A stretch of DNA of 64,000 nucleotides from Candidatus Altimarinota bacterium. Lineage in GTDB: Bacteria; Patescibacteriota; Gracilibacteria; BD1-5; UBA6164. The stretch spans positions 1 through 64,000 of the forward strand of contig JAQUZB010000001.1 in assembly GCA_028691535.1 (NCBI GenBank), given 5' to 3'. Shown here one piece after another: positions 227 through 390 of the stretch (its first letter is position 1; every line of letters begins with the position of its first letter). The position numbers and the translations under genes are program-made. A model generated the notes under the pieces. That model did no database searches. It saw only the letters and a list, made by a program, of their open reading frames with translations, and was not told the DNA's origin.

Positions 227-390
227 AAGTAAAAAATATTTTTCCAAAAAGATGGCTTGGAACCCATTTAAAATATTTATTTACAAAAGTAAAAATTCTG
301 GGTGGAACCGTCCTAAATTAAATTTTAAAAAAGGACCCTAGAGATATATTTTCGAAAAGAAAAAAATATCTTTAAGGTCTTTTTTCTTTT
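227..390 (+). promoter_or_regulatory. T-box riboswitch leader of glyS
   Basis: The leader contains the T-box core GGGTGGAACCG at 300-310. It folds as a canonical antiterminator: helix A1 pairs 297-302 with 337-342; a 7-nt bulge TGGAACC (303-309) follows; helix A2 pairs GTCC (310-313) with GGAC (333-336). In T-boxes the UGGN of the bulge pairs with the tRNA NCCA end. N is A here, which fits the U discriminator usual for bacterial tRNA-Gly. Upstream, 229-241 pairs with 271-284 as a short stem I, capped by TTCC/GGAA (242-245/259-262) with GGC at 254-256 in its loop. The GGACC segment is shared with the downstream terminator, so the two folds exclude each other. Expected logic: uncharged tRNA-Gly stabilises the antiterminator and glyS is transcribed. 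The specifier assignment is inference. Confidence 0.88.
333..390 (+). terminator. Intrinsic terminator of the glyS T-box leader
   Basis: GACC (334-337) pairs with GGTC (376-379). The stem continues through 339-347 with 366-374 around a T/A-rich apical part and is followed by a T-rich tract at 380-390. Its left arm re-uses the 3' strand of the antiterminator, so termination and antitermination are alternatives. Confidence 0.85.

Follow-up and report, generated by a model that had tools for sequence, protein, structure and literature searches.

The leader upstream of glyS in a Gracilibacterium raises the question of which glycine tRNA such a short RNA could sense, and with which structural parts. 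The organism uses genetic code 25, with TGA read as glycine. In the 64,000-nucleotide stretch of DNA analyzed here (the window), the gene for glycyl-tRNA synthetase, glyS, occupies positions 428 to 1849 of the forward strand. Its translation contains 11 in-frame TGA codons, and the reading frame is uninterrupted only when these are read as glycine. Homologues of glyS were found in 69 of the 77 genomes of the order. The elements described below all lie on the forward strand, in the order promoter, stem I, A-rich linker and antiterminator with a competing terminator, ending with glyS at 428. Judged by its sequence, this leader is very probably a pared-down T-box that would sense uncharged tRNA and attenuate transcription.

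Architecture of the glyS leader

A promoter was located by consensus scan at 193-220, with a -35 box TTGAAA (193-198), a 16-bp spacer and a -10 box TATAAT (215-220), and most relatives have a similar layout. The position of the -10 box predicts an RNA start at about 227. Because the RNA would start just 5' of stem I, there is no space for the IDTM or other distal modules, as stated in an earlier note on this DNA, which had seen no room for the modules that dock on the tRNA elbow. In most relatives, the specifier codon follows the -10 box at a distance of roughly 13-43 nt, so stem I appears to be complete as predicted.

Even shorter arrangements were observed in other genomes. In G002 (L186, L101), 13 nt separate the -10 box from UGGCA, and stem I would be a mere 5-6 bp hairpin, UCUUC-CUGGCAC-GAAGA, beginning at the first transcribed base. 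G015 and G029 (L194, L195; also L277, L278) carry glyS T-boxes with a consensus promoter whose -10 box, TATACT, ends about 35-42 nt upstream of the T-box; a stem III, an antiterminator and a terminator are present, and neither stem I nor a specifier fits in the space. No further glyS T-boxes of this kind were found among 353 genomes of the class. A match in G048 was rejected, as it sits within a leader that has stem I.

Stem I (229-284) was obtained both as the MFE structure of 227-285 and in the unconstrained MFE structure of 227-343, which consists of stem I and the antiterminator. It comprises an outer helix (229-242/270-284, with one bulged A), a 5' internal loop (243-249) and an apical hairpin (250-255/264-269); the single compact stem with a small hairpin cap described in the earlier note was thus recovered. 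The apical specifier hairpin, AUGG-CUUGGAAC-CCAU (252-267), displays a loop of 8 nt (256-263), which has 9 nt in some relatives. No GA/GA signature was seen by eye at 243-251/268-269; some f3 relatives have UGAUGA..GGAG-like strands on both sides of the hairpin.

Folded as a single sequence, the region 222-290 gave a weak signal (z -1.55; 19 of 200 shuffles reach the same value), and the argument is therefore carried by comparison. RNAalifold on 16 leaders returned a consensus containing the apical hairpin and the antiterminator. Over 34 distinct relatives, the covariation score of the apical stem was 0.874 versus 0.217 in shuffles, and none of 500 shuffles reached 0.874; 87% of cells were paired, versus 52% when shuffled. 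A hairpin with a UGGN(A/G) loop scored above threshold in 49 of 55 leaders, compared with 1.2 expected in dinucleotide shuffles (P=0.007 for the window leader alone). The hairpin is also represented in a covariance model, R1, which was built from glyS leaders of the order and has the window leader among its training sequences.

Stem I is followed by an 11-nt A-rich linker, AAAAGUAAAAA (285-295), which by the spacing in the order occupies the place where stem II and stem III would be. In the MFE fold, stem II is absent: no helix separates stem I from helix A1 of the antiterminator. The distance from specifier to T-box is bimodal in the order, with 41-49 nt in 24 leaders, including that of the window, and 53-71 nt in 31. 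In the longer group (about 31 of 55), an extra hairpin is recognizable by eye and by spacing, and on visual inspection agrees with the RRRxG-stem III-AA motif of the literature. The window leader has neither stem III nor the purine string of this motif.

The antiterminator (296-343) was found in both the MFE structure and the alifold consensus. Helix A1 (296-302/337-343) and helix A2 (310-314/332-336) enclose a 7-nt bulge, UGGAACC (303-309), which is the UGGN-ACC bulge that characterizes T-boxes in general. Bulge base A306 is complementary to the discriminator base U73 of both glycine tRNAs found in the genome. At the base of A2, where a conserved G-U wobble is said to sense charging, the window leader has the pair G310-C336; the wobble is present in genus g33 and a few others. 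The intrinsic terminator (328-385; -22 kcal/mol, z -5.8, reached by 0 of 200 shuffles) has positions 332-343 in common with the antiterminator, and the two structures are mutually exclusive.

Specifier codon and tRNA match

Of the glyS leaders collected from the order, 55 have UGGN(A/G) in a hairpin loop 41-71 nt before the T-box. The loop assignment is less secure in G012, where it was set by hand, and in G020, G054 and G057, which have short or weak stems. The loop codon was GGN in all 55 leaders (GGA in 40, GGC in 10, GGU in 4 and GGG in 1), with a purine on its 3' side. In the window leader this codon is GGA (259-261), flanked by U258 on the 5' side and the purine A262 on the 3' side. The earlier note had assigned the specifier to the apical loop and not to a 3' internal loop, and had proposed a comparison of related leaders. 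This comparison supports the apical placement. It does not support the codon named there: GGC at 254-256 had been taken for the only glycine codon, overlooking GGA within the same loop, where the conserved GGN lies.

The tRNAs were read from their loci and by a pattern scan, which for tRNA-Gly required U73. tRNA-Gly(UCC) was found nearly everywhere in the order, and the pattern scan detected tRNA-Gly(GCC) in 12 genomes. The third base of the loop codon tracks the latter tRNA: leaders with GGC come from genomes with and without tRNA-Gly(GCC) in 9 and 1 cases, versus 2 and 43 for leaders with other codons (Fisher, 8.3e-8). The value of 5e-4 obtained at genus level is the fairer figure, since the genomes are related. 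Two genomes depart from the rule: G044 has a GGC leader although no tRNA-Gly(GCC) was found, and G004 has GGA in the loop despite its tRNA-Gly(GCC).

The glycine tRNAs found in the window genome are tRNA-Gly(UCC) and tRNA-Gly(UCA), both with U73. Loci and pattern scan revealed no tRNA-Gly(GCC) in this genome; as the genome is 94% complete, the absence is probable rather than certain, but the genus likewise lacks a match. Among the genome's tRNAs that were read, a match to at least 4 nt of the apical loop is limited to Gly(UCC) and Trp(CCA), and only the former has U73, which fits A306. Since the loop sequence UUGGAA is complementary to positions 33-38 of tRNA-Gly(UCC), this is most likely the isoacceptor sensed, and not GCC or UCA. 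The earlier choice between GCC and UCA was wrong because the codon had been misplaced; of the glycine tRNAs detected in the genome, UCC alone matches.

These sequences might be used differently. The free leader could pair 242-246 with 258-262 and 264-284 with 287-305, masking both specifier and T-box until tRNA binds. This fold includes the pairing of ACCCA (262-266) with TGGGT (299-303) pointed out in the earlier note. It is the MFE structure of 227-305 (-12.1 kcal/mol) and of 227-309 (-13.3 kcal/mol), with stem I alone at -9.9 kcal/mol; its pair probabilities are about 0.9, and it competes in transcripts of about 79-83 nt. Moreover, UUUAC-AAAA-GUAAA recurs in several relatives and genera, and the 3' strand of stem I (280-295 region) can pair to either side. 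However, in transcripts of matching length three of the four closest relatives (G051, G052 and G053, with G054 as the exception) keep the specifier largely unpaired, and it is unpaired at 0.82 on average over the 55 leaders. Within the genus, strong masking occurs only in G000 and G054, and the full-length MFE structure brings stem I back. The two sequences are present as noted and their pairing is energetically possible when the transcript ends at 305-309, but because the specifier is open in G051, G052 and G053 at the same stage, the masking helix is probably incidental. We consider such a masking switch unlikely.

The apical UGGA could also serve as a second site for the UCCA 3' end of the tRNA, with no contact to the anticodon. 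It is complementary to UCCA and, in the window leader, identical to the T-box bulge; the earlier note had listed a second TGGAACC at 258-264. The letters are indeed there, but they are the specifier loop itself, and ACC is not common to most relatives. An acceptor-end site would also be hard to reconcile with the final base of UGGN in the loop, which varies (A, C, U or G), while every tRNA-Gly found has U73 (the scan required it, and both tRNAs of the window genome do have it) and the T-box bulge base opposite the discriminator is A in nearly all leaders; a C in the loop accompanies tRNA-Gly(GCC). This second use of the acceptor end is very unlikely.

That GGC (254-256) is the specifier after all, and tRNA-Gly(GCC) the ligand, is highly improbable: it is a glycine codon adjoining the loop, but two of its bases, G254 and G255, form pairs of the apical stem, the stem sequence of relatives varies freely while the loop GGN is constant, and this tRNA was not found in the genome or genus. 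There is scarcely any chance that UGG (258-260) is the codon and tRNA-Trp(CCA) the ligand. Its loop UUCCAAA matches six loop bases, as well as Gly(UCC) does, but the downstream gene is glyS, tRNA-Trp has G73 whereas A306 fits U73, the base 3' of GG changes with the presence of tRNA-Gly(GCC), and a more distant glyS leader (L200) has CGGC in place of UGGC. Sensing of tRNA-Gly(UCA), which decodes the reassigned TGA, is just as remote; this tRNA is in the genome and has U73, but the apical loop contains no TGA, and fewer than 4 nt of it match the anticodon loop.

Proposed mechanism and known T-box classes

Taking GGA as the specifier and tRNA-Gly(UCC) as the ligand, the leader could work as follows. 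After the start at about 227, stem I would fold first and display GGA (259-261) in its 8-nt apical loop, with which the anticodon loop of tRNA-Gly(UCC) could form up to six consecutive pairs (UUGGAA:UUCCAA). If this tRNA is uncharged, its UCCA end would pair with the bulge positions UGGA (303-306); this would stabilize the antiterminator (296-343), block the terminator (328-385) and let glyS be transcribed. With charged tRNA-Gly(UCC), the terminator would win. tRNA-Gly(UCA), the reader of the reassigned TGA codons, would not be sensed. Comparison of the leaders shows the structure, the position of the codon and the tRNA match; tRNA binding, its dependence on charging and regulation of glyS by the leader are what we infer from them.

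Published T-boxes with a short stem I need stem II, the antiterminator alone reportedly does not bind tRNA without stem III, and the IDTM, stem II or both are held to be necessary for gripping the tRNA, with stem III required for sensing its charging (PMC7583486, PMC10482949). Because the window leader has neither stem II nor stem III, its binding of tRNA may be weak, or aided by an unseen factor. Our guess is that the extended loop-loop pairing makes up for the lost parts.

Four T-box classes have been published (PMC10482949). Like class II (B. subtilis glyQS), the window leader appears glycine-specific and to act by transcription attenuation; it has no stem II, carries a UGGN-ACC bulge and precedes a glycyl-tRNA synthetase gene. 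Class II leaders, however, combine a long, IDTM-bearing stem I with a specifier in an internal loop (PMC10482949), whereas only 229-284, about 56 nt, is available here after the promoter, and GGA is in the apical loop. With class III (N. farcinica and M. tuberculosis ileS), the leader shares a short stem I without the IDTM, an apical specifier and a purine 3' of the codon. Class III differs in having a 5-6-nt loop, in requiring stem II and in acting mostly by translational control (PMC10482949); the type described here has a loop of 8-9 nt (8 nt in the window), no stem II with its S-turn, and a terminator as output. Class IV (A. odontolyticus ileS) likewise has a stem I without the IDTM, but its specifier is in a side bulge and not in the apical loop; it is otherwise similar to class III and mostly translational (PMC10482949). 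Thus, by its function-defining parts the leader is a T-box and on paper works like one, and its predicted layout (apical specifier, no elbow-docking module, stem II or stem III, transcriptional output) fits none of the four published classes. The Rfam model RF00230 had no match in the window or in the whole genome, at gathering or permissive thresholds; matches to the Rfam families MIR and trpB were rejected, being accounted for by the terminator and by chance.

Distribution and significance

In most genomes of the order, R1 matches one element per genome (two in one of them). A few matches were obtained elsewhere in the class, mostly ahead of thrS. On a sample of the phylum, R1 matched in 26 of 379 genomes; of the matches that were read, five precede glyS and have an apical GGN loop (L199, L200, L203, L205, L215), and others precede thrS. 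Among 60 glyS upstream regions across the phylum, a T-box was found in 3 (G445, G459, G396); a motif match in G392 was rejected as it looks coding. Within the order this glycine type is frequent; beyond it, leaders of this kind are sparse and scattered.

Several further loci were encountered. A second GGTGGNACC site is present in the window genome (C10), where R1 finds one element. In other orders of the class (L166, L168, L169, L170, L171, L172, L174), T-box leaders precede thrS-like genes; they have a conserved hairpin resembling GGCUGAAA and a stretch similar to UACCACC, in which the Thr codon ACC could lie. In G330 (L173), the R1 match is ahead of an ileS-like gene. In L175, L176, L178, L181 and L183, the T-box heads an operon with glyS as its last gene, and a small protein with a RNKKVEADKAWE-like stretch recurs among the genes of this operon.

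In the open-access literature, with incomplete coverage, we found no relevant paper on T-boxes in Gracilibacteria, the candidate phyla radiation or Patescibacteria, and priority is not established. Altogether, we lean slightly towards a fifth T-box architecture, made up of transcriptional glycine T-boxes of Gracilibacteria and scattered candidate-phyla bacteria. These would rely only on the codon-anticodon contact in the apical loop and on the acceptor end, with neither IDTM nor stem II, often without stem III and, in G015 and G029, possibly without stem I. Such leaders escape the T-box models now in use (Rfam RF00230). A natural series that drops the parts of the T-box one by one, in tiny genomes where TGA encodes glycine, would show the minimum tRNA sensor, and would offer a direct way to learn whether loop-loop pairing over six base pairs can stand in for the missing parts.
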